A stretch of 35,744 nucleotides of DNA from an uncultured Acidobacteriota bacterium (lineage in GTDB: Bacteria > Acidobacteriota > Thermoanaerobaculia > Gp7-AA8). Below, piece by piece: positions 2,278 to 18,793 of this stretch. The notes under the pieces are model-generated. The model did no database searches, was not told where the DNA came from, and worked only from the letters and a program-made list of their open reading frames with translations. The translations under genes were made by a program, and so were the position numbers. Positions within the stretch are counted from its first letter, which is position 1. Each line of letters opens with the position of its first letter. Where the stretch lies: contig CALMZP010000106.1 in assembly GCA_937870635.1 (NCBI GenBank), positions 1-35,744 of the forward strand, read 5' to 3'.

Positions 2278-4686
2278 GTGATCCGCTCCCGCTTCCTTCG
2301 TGGGCTCCTGATCCTCGCCGGAATGGGCGGGGTCATGTACGTTCTGGCCAGCCTTTTTCTCCCGTCGCCGCGCCGCCTGATCTTCGGCGTCGACAAGCGG
2401 ACGGGCGAAGTGCGGATGGTCCAGCAGAACGTGACCTTCCTTCCCCCGCACCGCTTCTATCGCATGTCGTTCGAGCAGCGCGACGGGTCGGCGCAACGCG
2501 ACGGTCTCGTGCAGATCATGTCCCGCGAGGGCGTGCCCGTCACACTCACCTACAGGCTCCGTTTCAGTGTCGAGAAGGAGCAGCTGGCCGACGCACGCCG
2601 CCTCGTTCGGGAAGGATGGAGCGCCTGGATCCGGGCCCGCGTCAGCGAAGCGATGGCCGTCGTCACGCGCCAGGTTCCGATTGAAGACCTGCTCTCTCCG
2701 AGCTCGCAGTTCAACGCCTCGCGAGAGCCGCTGCGGCGTCTGGTGGCTGCGCATCTCGCTCGAAGCGGCCTGAATGTCACGGCGTTTCACATCGCGCGCA
2801 TCGAGCCCGATCGCAATGCGCTGCTGCAGTACAAACGTACGGAGCTGCGCCGCGCGGCGCGCGGTGTGGCGGGACGCGTTGCGGTCATCGCCATCGACGG
2901 CGCGGACTGGGAGTTGATCTCCGAGCTCGCGAACGACGGTCGGGTTCCGAACCTTCGCGCGCTGACTCAGGGCGGCGCTTCCGGTTCGCTGCAGACCGTT
3001 CAGCCGACGGTTTCTCCTCTGGTCTGGACGTCGGCAGCCACCGGCGTTCAGCCCGACCGTCATGGCGTCATCGACTTTCTCAGCAGCGGCTCGCCCGTCG
3101 ATGCTTATGCGCGGCGAGCGCCCGCTGTCTGGGAAATCTCGGAGGCGTTCGGAAGGCACGCTGTGGTCGCGAACTGGTGGACGGCGTGGCCTCCCGTACC
3201 GAATGCCACCGTGGTCTATGACACGCCGGTCGATCACCTGCCGACGGCGCTCTATCCGGCGAAGCATGAGCAGCGCGTCGGCTCGATGCGCGTACCCATC
3301 GAGACCATCGGATACGAACAGGTTCGCCGCTTCCTCAATATCACCGAGGCGGAGTATCAGCAGGGAGTCACGTCGGGGAATCCGTCTGATCCGGTGATCG
3401 TCATGCGCTCGCTCCTCGCCAAGACGTGGAGCGATCATCGAGCCGGTCTCGAGCTGTATCGGCAGGAGAACCCACTCCTGATGATGATCCACTACGAAGG
3501 CACCGACGTCGTGAACCACCTCGGTGCTCCGTACCACCCGCCGTACCGCGAAGGAATCAGCAACACGGAATTCCGCAAGTACTGGCCGCTCGTCGCGAAC
3601 TACTACTCGGAGATCGATCGACTCATCGGCGAGTGGATGTCCGTGCTCACCGAAGACACCACGGTCATCGTCATGTCCGCGCACGGGTTCCGATGGGGAC
3701 GGGAACGTCCGCGCGCGCAACCCGCCGGCCGCGCCGCGCTCTCCGATCATTCCAACACCGGTATCTTCATCGCCTACGGAAACCACGTCGTTCCCTCGCG
3801 TGCCGCCCGGACCGTCTCCATCTACGACATCACCCCTACCATCCTGGCGATTCTCGGTCTGCCGTCCGCCATGGAGATGCCAGGGCAGGTCCCGCCGGGG
3901 GTCTTCCGCGACATCAGGCCTGTCGAATCGGTACGAGTGGTGAGCTACACCGAGTTCTTTGGCGAACGTCCGATCGCGACTGCGCTCCGGCCGGCACCTG
4001 TGCGTTACAAACAGAATCTCCTCGCGGTCGGACACATTCTCGACTCAGGCCGCGGAGGAGCGCCCGCGGTCGAGGAAGCGGCACGCGCGGCAGCGTCAGC
4101 GCCGCTTCCGCCGGAACGATGGGGTCCGTACGCGTACTACAACAATCGCGGGATCGAGCTGCGGCGGGAGGGAAAGACGAAAGAAGCGATCGAAGCCTTT
4201 CAGGCGGCGATCAATATCAATCCCGATCGTCCCACCCCTTATCTGAACATGGCCATGACGCTGTTCGAGAGACAGCAGTACACCGCCGCCGAGAACGTCT
4301 TCATGCAGGCGGTGAACAAGGGGCTCGCCAACGGCGACCAGTGGTTCGCCGATTTTGCAGCGCTGTATCGCGAGAACAACATGACCACGCGTGCGATCGA
4401 GCTGCTGCTCAAAGGCCGCCAGCTCTATCCGCAGTCCTATGTCATCGCCGTCAATCTCGGCTCCGCGCTCGCGCAGGCCGAGCGCTACACCGACGGAGTG
4501 CCAGAGTTCGAGCGCGCCCTGGGACTTCGCCCGTCATCCACACACGCACTCAACGGCCTCGGTCTCATTCACGCCAAGCGCGGAGAGTACGCGCGCGCGC
4601 TCGACTTCTGGAACCGCTCGCTGACGATCGACCCGCGCCAGCCGCAGATTCGCGCGGCAGCCGACGCCGCACGCTCGAGGCTGTAA
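2278..4686 (+). CDS. SPFH-like / type I phosphodiesterase (alkaline phosphatase superfamily) / TPR fusion protein
   Basis: An 802-residue three-part protein. A membrane anchor (about 8-29) is followed by an SPFH/band-7-like region (about 30-190). An alkaline-phosphatase-superfamily domain (PF01663 type, about 200-560) shows IDGADW (D207, D210), a PTVSPLVWTS nucleophile region (S246 likely) and GTDVVNHL (D410, H414). H491 in LSDHSNTGIF is a further likely ligand. TPRs occupy about 620-800. In active relatives the next motif is SDHG; here it is SAHG (A468, H469), so one metal-binding Asp is missing and activity is doubtful. The GTG start at 2278 precedes a good membrane helix; no strong Shine-Dalgarno is visible. 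Likely inner-membrane anchored, large part outside the cytoplasm. The substrate is unknown. Confidence 0.75.
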   Translation: MIRSRFLRGLLILAGMGGVMYVLASLFLPSPRRLIFGVDKRTGEVRMVQQNVTFLPPHRFYRMSFEQRDGSAQRDGLVQIMSREGVPVTLTYRLRFSVEKEQLADARRLVREGWSAWIRARVSEAMAVVTRQVPIEDLLSPSSQFNASREPLRRLVAAHLARSGLNVTAFHIARIEPDRNALLQYKRTELRRAARGVAGRVAVIAIDGADWELISELANDGRVPNLRALTQGGASGSLQTVQPTVSPLVWTSAATGVQPDRHGVIDFLSSGSPVDAYARRAPAVWEISEAFGRHAVVANWWTAWPPVPNATVVYDTPVDHLPTALYPAKHEQRVGSMRVPIETIGYEQVRRFLNITEAEYQQGVTSGNPSDPVIVMRSLLAKTWSDHRAGLELYRQENPLLMMIHYEGTDVVNHLGAPYHPPYREGISNTEFRKYWPLVANYYSEIDRLIGEWMSVLTEDTTVIVMSAHGFRWGRERPRAQPAGRAALSDHSNTGIFIAYGNHVVPSRAARTVSIYDITPTILAILGLPSAMEMPGQVPPGVFRDIRPVESVRVVSYTEFFGERPIATALRPAPVRYKQNLLAVGHILDSGRGGAPAVEEAARAAASAPLPPERWGPYAYYNNRGIELRREGKTKEAIEAFQAAININPDRPTPYLNMAMTLFERQQYTAAENVFMQAVNKGLANGDQWFADFAALYRENNMTTRAIELLLKGRQLYPQSYVIAVNLGSALAQAERYTDGVPEFERALGLRPSSTHALNGLGLIHAKRGEYARALDFWNRSLTIDPRQPQIRAAADAARSRL

Positions 4687-10453: not shown

Positions 10454-13400
10454 TTAGAACGCGTACCCCAGCGTGATTGAGTAATTGAACGTCCGGTCGT
10501 ACGGGCGCCGGTCGAGCGGCCAGCCGATGTCGATGCGCAACGGGCCAACCGGCGAGAGATAGCGGATGCCCGCTCCGACGCCGAGGCGCAGATCGTCGAA
10601 CTGGATTGTCGGTGACGAGAAGACGTTCCCGATATCCGCGAACACCGCGCCGCCGAGCGTGCCGAAGATCGGGAATCGGTATTCGGCATTCATGATGAGA
10701 AGGCTGTTCCCACCGAGCGGCGCCAGACGGTATTTGTCACCCTCTCTGGCGAGATTGAACAGCGTGGACTCGCACCCAGGTTCCGGATCGGCCTCACCCT
10801 CGCACAAGGTGCCGAGAAGATCGAGCGGGTAGGCGCGATGCGAAGTGTCGCCGCCGGCCGTGAAGCGCTCGGCGACCGGAACGAACCGCGACTCGTCGAG
10901 CGGCGTCGTCGGATCGTCCTTTCGCAGCGGCTGAATCCAACCCATGCGGCCGGACAGTGCAATGACGCTCCGCGTGCTAACGGGGATGTACCACGCACCC
11001 TGGAGGAACTCCTTGGTGAAGTTCGTCTCCGCCGAAAAGAGCGGGAACGCGTATTCGACCGAGGCGCTGGTGAAGAAGCCGCGGTGCGGATCGATGATGT
11101 CGTCGCGGCGGTCCCAGAAGAACGTCGGCGTGATGCTGGAGATCTCGATGTCGAGGAGGGATGGATCGAGACCGGGAACGAAGATCTGCCCGGCGCGTTC
11201 GCAGAGCGCACCCTGCACGCACTCGGAAATCTTGTACTGATACTGCAGCGACCAACGCGTTCGCGCGCGGGCGATCTTTGACGCTTCGATCGACGCGCCG
11301 CGCTGCCGGACGACGCGCTCCTTGACCGTTCCGTCGTCTGTCTGGAACAGGTTGAACTGCACAGGCACGTCATAACGCCCGAGGAACGGCTCGCGATAGG
11401 TGATGAACGCTTCCTGCTCGTCCTCACTCCACACGGCTTCGACGCCGAGGAAGCGGCCGGTGCCGAAGAGGTTGCGATGAGCGGCGGCCGCGGCGAGCCG
11501 CGGGGCGATGCGGCTTCGCTTGTCTTCATCATCACTCTCGTCGCTCGAGCTGTCGAAGCGCGCACCGGCCGACCCGCTGACGGTGAGGTTGCGGCCCTCT
11601 TCGACCGAGATCACTACGTTGCGCTCATCGACCGAGGTTCCGGTGGCGTCGGGCTGTACATCGACGCGCTGGAAGGTGCCCAGCCGATAGAGGTTCTGCT
11701 GCGCCTCGAGAATCGACGTATAGGTGAACGGCTCACCCTCGTCGAGGTCGGCCGTCCGGAGCACGACCTCCGAATTGGTGTAAGCGTTGCCGCGGACGAT
11801 CACATCGCCGACATCGATGCGCGGCCCTTCCGCGACGACATACGTCACGCGGGCCGCGGTCCTGTCTTCGGTGATGTCCTCCCGGGATGTGATCTGTACC
11901 TCCGCGTTTCCGCGGTTCGCGTAGAAAGTCTGAAGAGCGACGATGTCGTCGCGCAGAAGCTGCGGGTTGAGCGGTTCGCCGGGCTGAAGCTGGAACGATG
12001 GAAGATCGTCACGCCCGACCTGCTCCGTACCTTCGACTTCCACGGCGGTCACGAGCGTCTGCGGACCCTCCACAATCGGGAAATCGACTACCATCGTGCC
12101 GTCCGCGCGGGTCGTGACCACCGGTGTACCGACCGCTGCCTGCGTGAATCCCTCGAGACGGTACTGCGACTCGATGGCGTCACGGTCCTCGCTCAACTGC
12201 TCGCGCGTGATCCCCGTCGGCCGGCGGAAAAGCCGCGCGAGCAGACGGCGAATTCCGCCGCTCGGTGTCGTCGCGACGAGGCCTTCGAGCTCGTCGTCGG
12301 ATACCTTCGTGTTTCCCGTGAACGTCACGTCCGTCAGGCGGTAACGCAGGCCGGGAGCGACGTGAAACGTCGTCGTCCACGTGCCGTTGTCGCGCGTGCT
12401 CTCGGTATCGACCGTGACGTTGTAGTAGCCACGCTCCTGATAGGCCTCGACCATGCTCTCCGCGGACTGCTGGATCGCGTCTTCGCTGTACTCCTCATCG
12501 CGGTCGCGGAAGGGGAGCTGCCGGCGGACGGCACGGCGGGGAACGCCGGCAACTTCAATCTTCACCAGCGGGCCAGCGTCCACGCGGTACTGAAGCGCGA
12601 CCGTGTCCGTTTCCGCGTCATAGGTGTTCGACACCAGCGCGACCTCGGCGCGCCGGTGGCTGCGTCCGAACAGGAACCGCCGGATCCTGTTCACGTCCTC
12701 GCGCGCATCGGGCAGGCGATAACTGCGTCCCGGCTTCTGCCTCATCTCCTTGATGATCTCCGCCTCGGTGAACGGAGCGAGGTCGCCGACGACATCGAGA
12801 CTTCCGACCTTCGCTTCCGGTCCGAGGGTGACGTGGAAGACGACGTCCGCGAGGTTTCGCTCACGCGTGAATCTCGTCTCCGGATCGACGACCGCCTCGA
12901 GGTAACCATAAAGGCGCAGCTCTTCCTGAATGGCGACCGCGGTGTCGTCGACTTCGTTGAGAGAAAGGACCTCGCCGACGCGGACTCCCATCCGCCGCTC
13001 GGCGCGACGCCGGTTGCCGCCACCGACTCCTTCAAGGCCGATGCTGCCGATGCGGTAGTTCACCGACAGCGCGAAGGTCAGATTCACACCGCCGTCGGCC
13101 GCGGGCTCCGACTCGACGCGGATGTCGCGGAAGTTCCCGGTCCCGTAAAGAGCTTTGATCGAGCTCTGGAGCGCGCGCCTGGTGACGGGCTGGCCCGGCT
13201 GGAGGCTGATGTGCTCGCGCAGCGCGGCCGTATCGAAGGTGCCGTCAGCGCGGATGTCGATCTCGCTTGCGATCGTGTTGGGAGGAACGCTGGCGACACG
13301 CGTCGGCGGCGGCAGCGGCGCAATCTCGATGTCAGCCAGTGAATCGGCGACGGACTCCATCGGGAAGAAGTCCTCCCCGCGCCCGCGCCGGCCCCAGGTC

Positions 13401-16400
13401 CAGTGCCCCCGATACCGGCGGCGGAAACGGCCTTCGGCGCGGTATTCACTCTCGCTCTCATCGCGGGTGATCTGCAGTGTCCAGTCGCGCGTCACCTGCC
13501 ATTCGATCACCTCGCGGCTCTTGTGACTGTCGAGGTTGTAGACGACGAGGAGTCGCAGGTCGTCGCGCACGCGTTTCTCGAACGTGACCTTTGGCCCGGC
13601 GCCGGAGCCGGTGTCGAGAAGACCGGGATCGTAGGTGAATGAATCGGCGAACGGAAGAATGCGGGCGCCGAGCGCGGAGATGAGGCTCTGCGCAACGAGC
13701 GATTGACCGAGGACGGCCGCGTTTGCGGATGAGACGCCGCCGCCGGAGCCGCGGCGGGTCAGTTCGCCGAAGCCAAGAAGTGAGAAGAGGGTGATGTCAC
13801 TGGCGGGAGGATCGCTCGTGATCGACGGTGAGATGCGGTCGAGAGTGCCGGTGATGTTGACGGTGAGATCGATCGGCCCGCTCTCGAGCTCGGAGAGATT
13901 GCCGGAGACGCGGCCTTCGAACGTCACGTCGAAGTACGGGTCGATGCGGAACGGATTCTGAAAGTTGATCGTGCCGCGCACGAGACGGTAGTCGATGCCC
14001 TGGAACGTGACTTTGCCACCTTCATCCAGCTCAACGGTGCCGAGGATGACCGGGTTGGCCAGTGTTCCCATGACATCGAGGTCGGCGCTGCCGGTCGCCT
14101 CGGCGATGTTGTTACGGACGGCCAGAGTTCCGGGCGCATCGATGTGAATGCGAAGCTGCACGCGCTCCTGCCAGTCGGCGGCGACGACGGGTACCAGGCC
14201 ACGGCGGGACAGGACCACGTTGAGAATCGATTGCTGCAGATCGAAGTCGCGTGAGTAGACGGCACGGGTCACGCTCACATCGCCCTGCACGACGGAACGT
14301 TCGGCGTCACCGGCGACCCGCAGATCGAAGCCACCTTGGATGGTGAGGCCTTCGTAGTAGCGAAGCGCGACGTTCTCGCCAACGAGGCGGAGGCTGACGC
14401 TTTGGGGCGTCAATCCGTCGAGAACGATCGTTCCGCCGGCGACGACTGTTCCGCCGCCGAGGGTGGCCCTGAGAGATTCGATCTTGACGAGGTTCTCGTC
14501 GAATTCCAGCCTCCCGTTGATCTCGTCGATGAGCTGCGGAAATCCCGCGAACTTGACCTGGGCATCGACGAGGTCCCCCGTTCCCTTGATGAGCGGTTTT
14601 GCCATCGTGCCGCGAATGCCCGCGGTGACGATGAGGCGGCCGTCCGCGCGCACGTCGGGCATGAACAGCTGGAGGAGTGCGGCGGCGACGCTTCCGCTGA
14701 CGTCGATAACGAGGCGCCGGTCGCCCATCACTTCCGCAGTACCGGTCACGGCAAACGACGAGTCGGTGTGGAGCAGCTCGAACTGGTCGAATGAGAGGTG
14801 GCCCTCGCGGAGAGTGAGGCGCAGAGATTCGCGCGGAGTGAACTGTTCACCGGAGAAGCGGAAGTCGAGCGTGGGAACGGTCGCCTCGACCACGAGCTGG
14901 TCGAACGGCGAGAGACGTCCCCCGAGCTTGAGATCGATGACCGCATTCCCTGCCGCAGGAAGCGACGCGGTGTTCGGCGACAGCGCAACGAGGCGCGCGA
15001 TGTCAGTGACCGTGATGCGGACGTTGCCGTCGACGGTCAGTCCTTCGCCGACGATTCCGTCGCCTTCGATGGTGAGGATGTCCGCGAGTGAACCGCGGAC
15101 GATCAGACGGCCGCCGCGAATGGCGAGATAGAACGTCGGCGGGGAAGCGCCTTCGGGAAGATCGAGACCCTGAAAGGCGGCGTCGAGCAAGCGCGCTTCG
15201 ACGACGAGCTCCGGATTGTCCATCGTTCCGGCGCCGCTCGACGTGATGGCCAGGCGCCCTCCGAAGAGACTCTGCACGCTTTCGAGGACTTTGAGACGCG
15301 ACAGATCGATGGAGCTCGAGGCGATGGTGTACGTGAAGCGCTCGGTCGCGAAGTCGTACTCCGCCTCACCGGTGATCTGTCCGGCCGGCGCGGAGATCGA
15401 GACGGCGGTAGCGCGCATGCGACCGCGATCGAAAACGATATCGGCGGAGGCCACGTCGACCGGCTCGCCGAAGATTGTTCCACGGCGAACAGTGATCGAT
15501 CCCGCCCCCTCGAGCGCGGTCTTCGGTCCTTCGATGTGCAGCGTGCCGGTGAGCTGGCCGGTCACCGGCAGCGTTCCGAGATCGAGGAACGCGAGGATGT
15601 CGGCCACGGGGAATTCGCGCGCGGCGATGTCGAGGTTGAACCGGACGTTGCCTTCGCCGGGGAGCCAGGCGATGTCGCCGTTCAACCGCAGATCCGAGTC
15701 TTCGCGGCGGATGAGGAGATTGGCGAAGCGCACGGTGCCCGATTCCGGCGTGCCGGTGACGACGAGCGAACCAGTCGCAGCGCCGCCGCCGACCGTGAAG
15801 TCGAGATCCACCGCCTTGATCGCACGATCGACTGGATAACCCGCCGCTTCGACCGCGAGATCGAACCGCGGACCGGGACCGCGGTCCGGAAACGCAATGG
15901 TGCCTTTCAACGCAAGGCGTCCGGCGGCGTCGGTGAACACCGCGCGGTCGAACGTGAGAACGCTGCGCGGTCCGTCGTAGCGCAGCTCGATGTCGGACGC
16001 GCCAAGCAGGATGTCGTTGTATTTCGTGCCGCGGCCGGCGATGCGCGCGACGACCCGTGGCGCTTCGATCGGGCCGCGCACGGTTCCAGTGATCTCACCG
16101 GAGCCGCCCAATCCCAGAAGTTCGAAGTCGCGCTTTCCCGCCGAATGCGCAAAGTTGTACGCGGCGCGATCGAGCTCGCTGAAGTCATCGCTGTTGATCC
16201 GCACGCGCAGGTCCGTCACGACCCCTTCGATTCGGAGCGACCCGTCGAGGGCGATGCGCGATCCTGGCGTTTCGAGCTGCGCGTTCCGGAAGAGGACGAC
16301 GCCGTCGTTCAATTCGAAGTCCGTGGTGCCCGCCAGAGCAATCGGATAGCGCGCTTTGGAGAATGCCACCGCGTTGCGCGACAGCCGCGCGCTGCCGCGC

Positions 16401-17704
16401 CCTGTCCCGGCAAGAATCGCGTCCTTGTTCCAGCGATACGTGAGGCTCCCGGTCGCCGCCCCGCGCAACCCGGTGTTCTCCACACCCCAGTCGGAAAAGA
16501 GCTGCTCGATCGAGATCCCGTCGTAGCGGAGATCGACCGTCATCGGGTACGGCTCGGCGTACTGCGTCAGGCGGTAATCGGCGGAGATCGTGCCCCCGCC
16601 GTACCGCGCGCGCTCGACCTCGAGCAGGGTCCGCTCGCCGGTTACGTCGAGCGTGCCTTTCGCATCCGCGAGGTCGTAGGCATCCGCGGTGATCGCATTC
16701 GATACCCAGCCGCCCGTCAGACGAAAGTCGCCCGACCGGCCGCGGAGGTTCGTGTCGAGCGACAGCGTGCCGGCCAGAGTCTGGCTGACGCGAAAGACTT
16801 CGCGGACGCGCTCGAGCGAGATGTTCGATCGCACGCGCAGGTCATACACGGCCTCGGTCAGCGGATCGAGCTTGCCCGACACGAATGCTTCCACGCCCCG
16901 TCCGCGCAGCGCGATCGATTCGAGCAGGAGGACCCCTGGCGTGTAGCGGAAGCCGCCGCGAAGGTTCATCTCCACCGGTTCGTAGTCCTGGAGCCGGAAG
17001 ACGAACCGGGGGCTCTGCATGATGCCCGCGTAGAGGTTCTCGCGACTCGTGATCGTGAGGTCGGCGGCGATGGCACTTGCCTCCGCCGCGATGTCATGAC
17101 GGCGATCGAGAAACAGGAAGTTCCCGCCGCGAATGAACATGCGGTCGAACGCCATGCGATAGATCTCGTACCGCCGTCGGGGAGCGCGCGACCACTTCGG
17201 AAAGTTGTGCATGAGGGCGGCGCCCTGCGGGAAGACTTCGAAGTTGATTTTCGGGTTGATGATGTCGATGCGCGAGACGTCGAGCGTGCGTGTGCGCAGC
17301 GAGCCGATGCCGCCTGAGATTTCCACGCGGTCCACGTGTGCGAAGAAAGGACTCACGCCGCCGGGCGCATTGGCGACGCGCACATCGTGCAGAATGATTT
17401 TCGTCGGCTCGAACAGATTCGTGCGCTGGATCTGCACACGGCCGATCGTCACTTCGCGGCCGAGCCGCGCCTCGAGCGTCTGCTCGACGCGCCGGGCGAT
17501 GTAGTTCGTCGTGATCGTGGTCTGCAGTGCCCAGGGAGCGACGAACACGACCAGAATTCCGAGCGCGATGATGATGATGAAGAACATCATCATCAGGCGC
17601 AGGCACCCCCACATCGGGCCCTTCCGCTGACGCTCGCGCGCGGACCGGTGGTGCCCGGTCTCGTGCGGGAAAAGGGTGTCGCTCCTGATTGGCTGTTCTT
17701 CCAT
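10454..17704 (-). CDS. TamB-Omp85 (BamA/TamA) single-chain fusion, outer-membrane biogenesis
   Basis: A 2416-residue protein joining two normally separate parts of an outer-membrane assembly machine. A signal anchor (about 36-57) is followed by a very long repetitive beta-rich region of AsmA/TamB type (about 60-1430), whose C-terminal part matches the TamB/DUF490 domain (DPPASDITLFSLLGFGEL near 1290; VYNLDSHKSREVIEW). A short proline-containing linker (about 1433-1475) leads into seven POTRA-like repeats by my count (about 1475-2035, each with a GxxxxVxxVxxxGN-type junction). The Omp85 barrel (about 2040-2416) ends in NYSITLGYAF with terminal Phe. The frame is uninterrupted. Expected topology: inner-membrane anchor, periplasmic bridge, outer-membrane barrel. 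ATG 17704 lies 24 bases after the glycerate-kinase stop, suggesting an operon. Confidence 0.88.
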   Translation of the reverse strand: MEEQPIRSDTLFPHETGHHRSARERQRKGPMWGCLRLMMMFFIIIIALGILVVFVAPWALQTTITTNYIARRVEQTLEARLGREVTIGRVQIQRTNLFEPTKIILHDVRVANAPGGVSPFFAHVDRVEISGGIGSLRTRTLDVSRIDIINPKINFEVFPQGAALMHNFPKWSRAPRRRYEIYRMAFDRMFIRGGNFLFLDRRHDIAAEASAIAADLTITSRENLYAGIMQSPRFVFRLQDYEPVEMNLRGGFRYTPGVLLLESIALRGRGVEAFVSGKLDPLTEAVYDLRVRSNISLERVREVFRVSQTLAGTLSLDTNLRGRSGDFRLTGGWVSNAITADAYDLADAKGTLDVTGERTLLEVERARYGGGTISADYRLTQYAEPYPMTVDLRYDGISIEQLFSDWGVENTGLRGAATGSLTYRWNKDAILAGTGRGSARLSRNAVAFSKARYPIALAGTTDFELNDGVVLFRNAQLETPGSRIALDGSLRIEGVVTDLRVRINSDDFSELDRAAYNFAHSAGKRDFELLGLGGSGEITGTVRGPIEAPRVVARIAGRGTKYNDILLGASDIELRYDGPRSVLTFDRAVFTDAAGRLALKGTIAFPDRGPGPRFDLAVEAAGYPVDRAIKAVDLDFTVGGGAATGSLVVTGTPESGTVRFANLLIRREDSDLRLNGDIAWLPGEGNVRFNLDIAAREFPVADILAFLDLGTLPVTGQLTGTLHIEGPKTALEGAGSITVRRGTIFGEPVDVASADIVFDRGRMRATAVSISAPAGQITGEAEYDFATERFTYTIASSSIDLSRLKVLESVQSLFGGRLAITSSGAGTMDNPELVVEARLLDAAFQGLDLPEGASPPTFYLAIRGGRLIVRGSLADILTIEGDGIVGEGLTVDGNVRITVTDIARLVALSPNTASLPAAGNAVIDLKLGGRLSPFDQLVVEATVPTLDFRFSGEQFTPRESLRLTLREGHLSFDQFELLHTDSSFAVTGTAEVMGDRRLVIDVSGSVAAALLQLFMPDVRADGRLIVTAGIRGTMAKPLIKGTGDLVDAQVKFAGFPQLIDEINGRLEFDENLVKIESLRATLGGGTVVAGGTIVLDGLTPQSVSLRLVGENVALRYYEGLTIQGGFDLRVAGDAERSVVQGDVSVTRAVYSRDFDLQQSILNVVLSRRGLVPVVAADWQERVQLRIHIDAPGTLAVRNNIAEATGSADLDVMGTLANPVILGTVELDEGGKVTFQGIDYRLVRGTINFQNPFRIDPYFDVTFEGRVSGNLSELESGPIDLTVNITGTLDRISPSITSDPPASDITLFSLLGFGELTRRGSGGGVSSANAAVLGQSLVAQSLISALGARILPFADSFTYDPGLLDTGSGAGPKVTFEKRVRDDLRLLVVYNLDSHKSREVIEWQVTRDWTLQITRDESESEYRAEGRFRRRYRGHWTWGRRGRGEDFFPMESVADSLADIEIAPLPPPTRVASVPPNTIASEIDIRADGTFDTAALREHISLQPGQPVTRRALQSSIKALYGTGNFRDIRVESEPAADGGVNLTFALSVNYRIGSIGLEGVGGGNRRRAERRMGVRVGEVLSLNEVDDTAVAIQEELRLYGYLEAVVDPETRFTRERNLADVVFHVTLGPEAKVGSLDVVGDLAPFTEAEIIKEMRQKPGRSYRLPDAREDVNRIRRFLFGRSHRRAEVALVSNTYDAETDTVALQYRVDAGPLVKIEVAGVPRRAVRRQLPFRDRDEEYSEDAIQQSAESMVEAYQERGYYNVTVDTESTRDNGTWTTTFHVAPGLRYRLTDVTFTGNTKVSDDELEGLVATTPSGGIRRLLARLFRRPTGITREQLSEDRDAIESQYRLEGFTQAAVGTPVVTTRADGTMVVDFPIVEGPQTLVTAVEVEGTEQVGRDDLPSFQLQPGEPLNPQLLRDDIVALQTFYANRGNAEVQITSREDITEDRTAARVTYVVAEGPRIDVGDVIVRGNAYTNSEVVLRTADLDEGEPFTYTSILEAQQNLYRLGTFQRVDVQPDATGTSVDERNVVISVEEGRNLTVSGSAGARFDSSSDESDDEDKRSRIAPRLAAAAAHRNLFGTGRFLGVEAVWSEDEQEAFITYREPFLGRYDVPVQFNLFQTDDGTVKERVVRQRGASIEASKIARARTRWSLQYQYKISECVQGALCERAGQIFVPGLDPSLLDIEISSITPTFFWDRRDDIIDPHRGFFTSASVEYAFPLFSAETNFTKEFLQGAWYIPVSTRSVIALSGRMGWIQPLRKDDPTTPLDESRFVPVAERFTAGGDTSHRAYPLDLLGTLCEGEADPEPGCESTLFNLAREGDKYRLAPLGGNSLLIMNAEYRFPIFGTLGGAVFADIGNVFSSPTIQFDDLRLGVGAGIRYLSPVGPLRIDIGWPLDRRPYDRTFNYSITLGYAF

Positions 17705-17728: not shown

Positions 17729-18793
17729 CTAGGTACGAGCCACTAAGTACAAGTCCCGCAAGTTGTTGCCCGTCGGCGGAATGATAATCGGTCGGCCGAT
17801 TATGGAGGCTGTCCTCAGGGAGTCGGATGTCCGCAGGGCTTCCTCCGCGTCCGCCCGGTCGAATGAGGCGGGACAGTCGATTCGGAAACCGGCCGTGCCG
17901 CTGTTCCCGTCCACGCCGTCCGAGCTCCCGAACAGTGCTGTGAACTTGTGGCCGCGCGCTTCCAGTGCAAAACGAACGGCGAGCTCAGAACACCGTCCGC
18001 CCCGTCCCGGACCGCGGACGACGACGGTCGGCTCACCGCCGGCGATGAGTACCTCGTCATGTTGCAGAAGTGCGGCGCGATGTGCGAGATCTCGCGCTGC
18101 AACGGCCACGTCGGTCTCGATCTGATCAGGCCATTGAACAGCGCGGCCGTCATGCGCGGCGACGAGCGACGCGGCGACCGCGGTCAGAGTGTTGTTGTCG
18201 GCAATGAGAATCGGTGGTGACGATTTCGAGATCGACGGGCCCGAAGCGACCGACGCAAGATCGCCGGTCGAGACATCCGAGTAGACGAGCGTGACGTGGC
18301 GGCCGCGCACTCGTTCGGCGAGGCGGCCGCCTTTGATCGCAGACATGCGTTTGCGCGTGACGTTGATCGCGGCGATCCCGAGTCCCGATGCAACGAGCCG
18401 TGCGTTCTCCTGCGCGACTTCCTCTTCGGTCCATGGTGCGAGCGGAACCTCCACGCACGCGGAGCCGCCACCGCTGATGAGAAACGTGACGTCGTCGTGC
18501 GCGTCGATGAAGCGGAGCAGCTCTTCGCCGGCTCGGAAGCTCGATGGATTCATCTGAGGATGCCCGCCCTGCATGACGAGAGCAGGAGTGCGAGGCAGCG
18601 GATAACCCGCCGGCACCGCGACGAACGCGTTCTCGACACGACGCTCCGCCGCAAAGCCATCGAGTAGTGACGCGGCGCACTTTCCGATGGCCACGACATT
18701 TCGCGGGAGATCCGGCGTAACGAACTGCCTGATCAGCACATCGGGCGCACAGCGCCGCAGGGCCTCTGCATAGATGAGTTCCAGATCGAGCAC
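17729..18793 (-). CDS. Glycerate 2-kinase-like protein (DUF4147/MOFRL family)
   Basis: A 354-residue member of the class II glycerate kinase family, predicted to phosphorylate D-glycerate with ATP. Features: an N-terminal VAIGKCAASLLDG segment, the glycine-rich FLISGGGSACVEVP loop, KGGRLAERVRGR, then the MOFRL part GGEPTVVVRGPGRGGRCSEL and FGSSDGVDGNSGTAGF. It is shorter than the usual ~420-440 residues, mainly at the N-terminus and between domains, so the exact substrate is uncertain. The start is GTG 18793; a GATAAT-like -10 (18800-18805, minus strand) lies only 6 bases before it, which would give a nearly leaderless message. It precedes the TamB-Omp85 gene by 24 bases. Confidence 0.8.
   Translation of the reverse strand: MLDLELIYAEALRRCAPDVLIRQFVTPDLPRNVVAIGKCAASLLDGFAAERRVENAFVAVPAGYPLPRTPALVMQGGHPQMNPSSFRAGEELLRFIDAHDDVTFLISGGGSACVEVPLAPWTEEEVAQENARLVASGLGIAAINVTRKRMSAIKGGRLAERVRGRHVTLVYSDVSTGDLASVASGPSISKSSPPILIADNNTLTAVAASLVAAHDGRAVQWPDQIETDVAVAARDLAHRAALLQHDEVLIAGGEPTVVVRGPGRGGRCSELAVRFALEARGHKFTALFGSSDGVDGNSGTAGFRIDCPASFDRADAEEALRTSDSLRTASIIGRPIIIPPTGNNLRDLYLVART

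Follow-up and report, generated by a model that had tools for sequence, protein, structure and literature searches.

TamB and its Omp85 partner are normally two separate proteins. The locus described here raises the question of whether, in a group of soil Acidobacteria, both have come to be made as a single chain, one molecule of which should therefore bridge the whole envelope, and of how such a chain would arise and work. We analyzed a 35,744-nucleotide stretch of DNA (the window), in which a first-pass annotation had reported, at 10454–17704, one uninterrupted frame of 2416 codons running from a membrane anchor through an AsmA/TamB-type region and about seven POTRA repeats to an Omp85 barrel, and had read it as a fixed 1:1 bridge between inner and outer membrane. 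The coordinates and the uninterrupted frame are correct; the strand, which had been missing, is minus. The tamB-bamA fusion gene opens with an ATG at 17704 and closes with a TAA at 10454 (2416 codons plus stop, 2416 aa), and 14 genomes of the same family keep this single frame open across the junction.

Since the window is drawn from a fragmented genome (171 contigs totalling 4.5 Mb, with a completeness of 98.7%), an assembly or sequencing artefact joining two genes has to be considered. The plus-strand reading of 10454–17704 contains many stops, and the other two frames of the gene contain 43 and 33. Third-position GC is even, at 0.79–0.83 on both sides of the junction and in the linker. Neither this measure, nor the stops in the other frames, nor the 14 relatives gave any sign of a frameshift or misassembly at 13250–13450, a region that includes 13270–13420, where such a fault had been considered beforehand. 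An artefact is practically out of the question: the 14 genomes cross the junction in frame with differing linkers, and the fused forms lack the signal peptide that is found in split genes (see below). It is already refuted because relatives carry the same in-frame junction, and the TamB-POTRA-Omp85 single frame is confirmed as real. The start codon is uncertain as judged from the sequence, with an internal ATG at residue 31 (17614) being preceded by a better ribosome-binding-like sequence than the ATG at 17704; the transmembrane segment is retained with either. A MOFRL/DUF4147 glycerate kinase-like gene (17729–18793, minus strand) ends 24 bases upstream of the fusion gene on the same strand, and the two may therefore be co-transcribed.

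The N-terminal half has the layout of TamB. The predicted membrane anchor corresponds to a hydrophobic segment, LRLMMMFFIIIIALGILVVFVAPWAL, at residues 35–60 (17525–17602, minus strand), which forms a long N-terminal helix in the AlphaFold model. It is followed by an AsmA/TamB-type periplasmic β-groove (residues 60–1040; 14585–17527, minus strand), where Pfam places AsmA (PF05170) at residues 44–161 with 43 bits against a cut-off of 29.8, as well as a DUF748 match below cut-off. Next comes the TamB C-terminal domain (residues 1041–1435; 13400–14584, minus strand), with PF04357 matching residues 1077–1417 at 151.6 bits (cut-off 22.4) and a terminal strand motif, FRRRYRGHW. The model of residues 30–1229, built from 15 sequences (mean pLDDT 79.5), shows the helix and then a continuous run of β-strands, as would be expected for an AsmA/TamB groove. 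A Foldseek search with it returned weak groove-like matches only (ApoB, LptD, TamB), with large rmsd. The anchor and the long AsmA/TamB-type region ending in a TamB domain thus stand as first described. The signal anchor and the long groove are those of a TamB protein; the free aromatic C-terminus of TamB is absent, the motif FRRRYxxxW being kept but internal and followed by a linker and POTRAs. The NCBIfam TamB equivalog NF047952 scores 15.5 bits, below its cut-off of 825. The name TamB fits the domain, whereas the full-length protein is a TamB-Omp85 fusion.

On the far side of the junction, Pfam finds the POTRA family PF07244 (cut-off 21.3 bits) in seven stretches. When cut by hand and scored singly, these give 24.5–42.4 bits: POTRA 1 (residues 1477–1549; 13058–13276) 24.5, POTRA 2 (1550–1628; 12821–13057) 35.9, POTRA 3 (1629–1710; 12575–12820) 35.2, POTRA 4 (1711–1785; 12350–12574) 34.5, POTRA 5 (1786–1880; 12065–12349) 41.1, POTRA 6 (1881–1960; 11825–12064) 40.3, and POTRA 7 (1961–2037; 11594–11824) 42.4, all on the minus strand. 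The earlier count, made by eye, was therefore exact, because each of the seven segments passes the cut-off alone. POTRA 4 also matches the TamA POTRA 1 model PF17243 (29.0 bits, cut-off 26). The chain ends in an Omp85/BamA-type β-barrel (residues 2078–2416; 10457–11473, minus strand) with 147.4 bits to PF01103 (cut-off 24), closing with Phe, as had been noted, in the sequence ITLGYAF. The three main Pfam matches of the fusion have E-values of 1e-42 to 1e-58 and are therefore not due to chance.

The type of barrel had to be corrected. BamA TIGR03303 matches at 348.9 bits (cut-off 297.15), and is the only NCBIfam model to exceed its cut-off on the fusion. TamA was tried and rejected as a class for the Omp85 half, as NF047950 reaches 99.6 bits against 625 and there are seven POTRAs rather than three. 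Seven is also more than the five of BamA. The BamA loop-6 motif is (V/I)RG(F/Y); in most members of the window clade it reads HRAY, HRAF or NRAY (L044–L063), so that the Arg is kept and the Gly replaced by Ala in most. By these profile matches, the Omp85 half is a BamA paralogue, BamA-type but not canonical BamA. Standard annotation likely names the whole protein simply BamA, and the fusion may therefore have gone unnoticed. The AlphaFold model of residues 1300–2416 contains a helix plus six strands where TamB ends, a disordered linker, POTRA-like units (most of them good, the seventh poor) and barrel strands, and its best structural matches are BamA chains; at a mean pLDDT of 64.6 and pTM of 0.38, domain placement is not trustworthy and the model is uninformative about docking. 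The modelled TamB end resembles the E. coli TamB C-terminus, which has two helices and six strands (PMC12800296).

How, then, were the two halves joined? In the sister lineage L060, of the same order, TamB ends in FRRRYPGHW followed by a TGA stop, and the Omp85 frame starts at a GTG that overlaps this stop; it is shifted by one and begins with a signal-peptide-like sequence, VRRGCALMVVLMAAGFAGSAFG. The junctions of L046 and L055 resemble it, and in these and the other split outgroups the last residue of TamB is W, F or Y, followed by a stop at which the Omp85 frame opens, usually shifted by one and with its own signal peptide. In the window clade, the tail FRRRYRGHW instead continues into a linker (residues 1436–1479; 13268–13399, minus strand) and POTRA 1. 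The linker is variable, without a signal peptide, and disordered in the model (pLDDT ~23–39). Accordingly, most split genes have a strongly hydrophobic stretch behind TamB, which fused ones lack: the maximum hydropathy there has a median of 1.15 in fused (n=43) versus 2.55 in split genes (n=24; Mann-Whitney p = 4e-9, a value that overstates independence, the genomes being related rather than independent draws). Lacking an export signal, the fused Omp85 half would depend on the TamB half and leave the cytoplasm only within the whole chain; a separate Omp85 made from an internal start was rejected for the same want of a signal peptide. In two further genomes (G288, G310), TamB and Omp85 share a frame and are separated by a single stop (TAA at L091 4629–4631 and TAG at L096 4621–4623, respectively); these pairs are possibly one step from fusion, or are read through.

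Conservation varies along the junction. In 13 fused proteins, it averages 0.80 in the last TamB strand, 0.44 in the linker and 0.69 in POTRA 1; R1426, F1427, R1428, R1430, Y1431 and W1435 are invariant, and 48–72 residues separate W1435 from D1487, the first invariant residue of POTRA 1. The tail motif FRRRYxxxW thus hardly varies, even though it no longer ends the protein and a variable linker comes after it. Because the linker shows little conservation, differs in length and is predicted to be disordered, a protease could reach it, and the product might accordingly be a polyprotein, exported as one chain and then cut in the periplasm to yield a TamB and a BamA-like protein as separate molecules, working as they do in other bacteria. 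We regard this as improbable, as no conserved cleavage site or signal-peptidase-like segment was seen in the linker, and the linkers of other fusion lineages are, by our estimate, only ~15–30 residues long.

The fusion is not confined to one genome or family, as a survey of relatives proposed by the first-pass annotation revealed. Within the window's family, the full fused frame is present in ten genomes, including that of the window (2403–2510 aa stop to stop), and four further fused genes are cut by a contig end but still cross the junction. The named close relatives are Acidobacteriota MAGs from several independent projects, several of them labelled Thermoanaerobaculia or gp7; as far as named, all genomes of the family are MAGs. 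Outside the family, at least 30 sampled Acidobacteriota have TamB, POTRAs and barrel in one frame, with 399–483 residues between TamB and barrel compared to 624–654 in the window clade. The four of these that were scanned have three to four detected POTRAs, with room for about five, whereas the window clade and its split sister L060 have seven. Long-frame Omp85 proteins L076–L080 were considered as fusions and rejected, since they have no TamB domain. The plasmid records searched contained no fusion, and no place in them covered 80% of the query.

Separate adjacent genes with a stop between the domains, which would have spoken against a fusion had they occupied this position in close relatives, do occur, but they belong to outgroups drawn from the same order and the same class, in which tamB and the Omp85 gene usually overlap. 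In a tree of 56 rows (TamB domain plus barrel), the window clade forms ten rows after thinning, has a support of 100 and is placed among split genes; gain by fusion is therefore the simpler reading for this clade. The fused or split state requires four changes on the tree, of which strongly supported branches force at least three, the direction of change not being inferred, and FastTree on all 67 rows agrees. The fused state is thus a fully supported clade and recurs in the phylum. Some genomes depart from the pattern: G003 and G012 (L046, L055) are filed in the same family, yet their TamB and Omp85 genes are split and divergent and fall outside the fused clade in the tree, possibly through replacement by transfer or as an older paralogue. 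G069 (L087 and contig C30), G368 and G375 each have a second, separate TamB besides the fused TamB-Omp85. Genomes sampled from genus group g20 (family f8, in the same class) keep Omp85 proteins, with no TamB among the matches listed.

Adjacent overlapping genes can fuse by chance, and the predicted model gives no reliable docking, so the halves might be joined for co-expression only and act independently, with TamB not docked on its own barrel. This seems still less probable than cleavage of the chain: at least three switches between the fused and the split state are forced by the phylum tree, the TamB tail strand stays conserved, and binding between relatives of the two halves is known (PMC11361582, PMC12800296). 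Rather, that the genes have fused repeatedly speaks strongly, and independently, for TamB working with BamA-type barrels. In 2015 it was still undecided whether the two work together physically beyond the Proteobacteria (PMC4494059); the question has since been taken up experimentally in Borrelia burgdorferi, where TamB binds BamA (PMC11361582).

Comparison with known systems shows what is shared. Both the E. coli TAM and the fusion combine an AsmA-type, inner-membrane-anchored groove, a TamB C-terminal domain and an Omp85 barrel, with an aromatic tail strand (PMC12800296). However, the E. coli TAM consists of two proteins in the gene order tamA-tamB, TamA having three POTRAs, whereas the fusion is one chain with TamB first, seven POTRAs and a BamA-type barrel. 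Borrelia burgdorferi is similar in that TamB partners a BamA-type protein, for which a hybrid barrel, the TamB tail lying against BamA β1, has been modelled, but differs in having two proteins and a sole, canonical BamA with five POTRAs (PMC11361582, PMC13382580). That one chain can be anchored in both membranes is known from MlaD of Veillonella parvula, which joins an inner-membrane anchor to an outer-membrane barrel in a lipid-trafficking system; it is an MCE protein with a ten-stranded barrel, and its domains are unrelated to those of the fusion (PMC10665443). Closest to our case, Heinz et al. (2015) described a second BamA in Acidobacteria, in some instances with seven POTRAs, in an operon with TamB (PMC4494059). 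Their genes are separate and in the order BamA-TamB, with no fusion mentioned, whereas here TamB is upstream and joined; this second BamA encoded with TamB is evidently the split form of the fusion. We found no published description of a TamB-Omp85 fusion in the open-access literature, and as far as that literature shows, the single-frame fusion is new while the separate genes were known.

We consider it probable that the gene encodes a single-chain TAM/BamA-TamB-like machine, i.e., a covalent inner-to-outer-membrane bridge that arose from an overlapping tamB and bamA paralogue. The partnership of TamB and Omp85 that makes a TAM complex is present covalently in one frame, as read from the gene, and a topology compatible with such a bridge is supported. 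We infer that the N-terminus would sit in the inner membrane, that ~1000 residues of AsmA/TamB β-groove would cross the periplasm, that the TamB C-terminal domain would contact the POTRAs, and that the second, BamA-type, seven-POTRA barrel would be located in the outer membrane. Like E. coli TamAB, the fusion would most likely move phospholipids along its groove towards the outer membrane and assist the folding of a subset of outer-membrane proteins. Its most likely origin is a tamB lying upstream of a bamA paralogue that overlapped it, the stop and the Omp85 signal peptide having been lost and the frames joined. The first interpretation thus holds for the single chain, the seven POTRAs, the conservation and the bridge-compatible topology; as for the 1:1 bridge, one TamB per barrel follows for each chain, and one bridge per chain would be expected.

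The tail strand most likely retains its capacity to pair with a barrel's first strand. FRRRYxxxW aligns with LLYQFEF, the last residues of E. coli TamB, and judging by this alignment is the homologue of the TamA-pairing strand. That E. coli strand pairs with TamA β1, as the 2026 structure shows for TamB's last strand, and disulfides link TamA 267/269 with TamB 1258/1256 (PMC12800296). By analogy, the TamB end would lie near the periplasmic start of β1, so that a chain running on into the periplasm is topologically possible. We tentatively suggest, while holding it rather doubtful, that the tail pairs in cis with its own first barrel strand to make a hybrid barrel, closing a loop of tail, linker, POTRA 1–7 and β1, in what would also be the cell's only AsmA-type lipid bridge. 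If true, TamB docking would be intramolecular and need no free C-terminus. The single chain makes docking of the two halves directly testable, and the fusion is a natural fixed-ratio construct for structural work; lineage-specific linker lengths could serve as a natural distance ruler, the tail strand being kept though not terminal.

The genome also encodes a canonical BamA (825 aa, TIGR03303 475 bits), located on contig C130 beside a Skp/OmpH-like gene. The fusion is therefore an additional Omp85; its tethered barrel still has to be folded into the outer membrane, presumably by the canonical BamA. HMM searches of the genome for TamB, AsmA, YhdP, DUF748 and YdbH match only the fusion, which is thus the only AsmA/TamB-type protein detected. 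Because TamB, YhdP and YdbH of E. coli are redundant but jointly needed, according to work cited in PMC12800296 and PMC13067283, and only the fusion was found here, we predict by analogy that the fused gene is essential. Elsewhere in the window (2278–4686, plus strand), an 802-aa frame unites SPFH/Band 7, type I phosphodiesterase and TPR repeats, an unusual combination.
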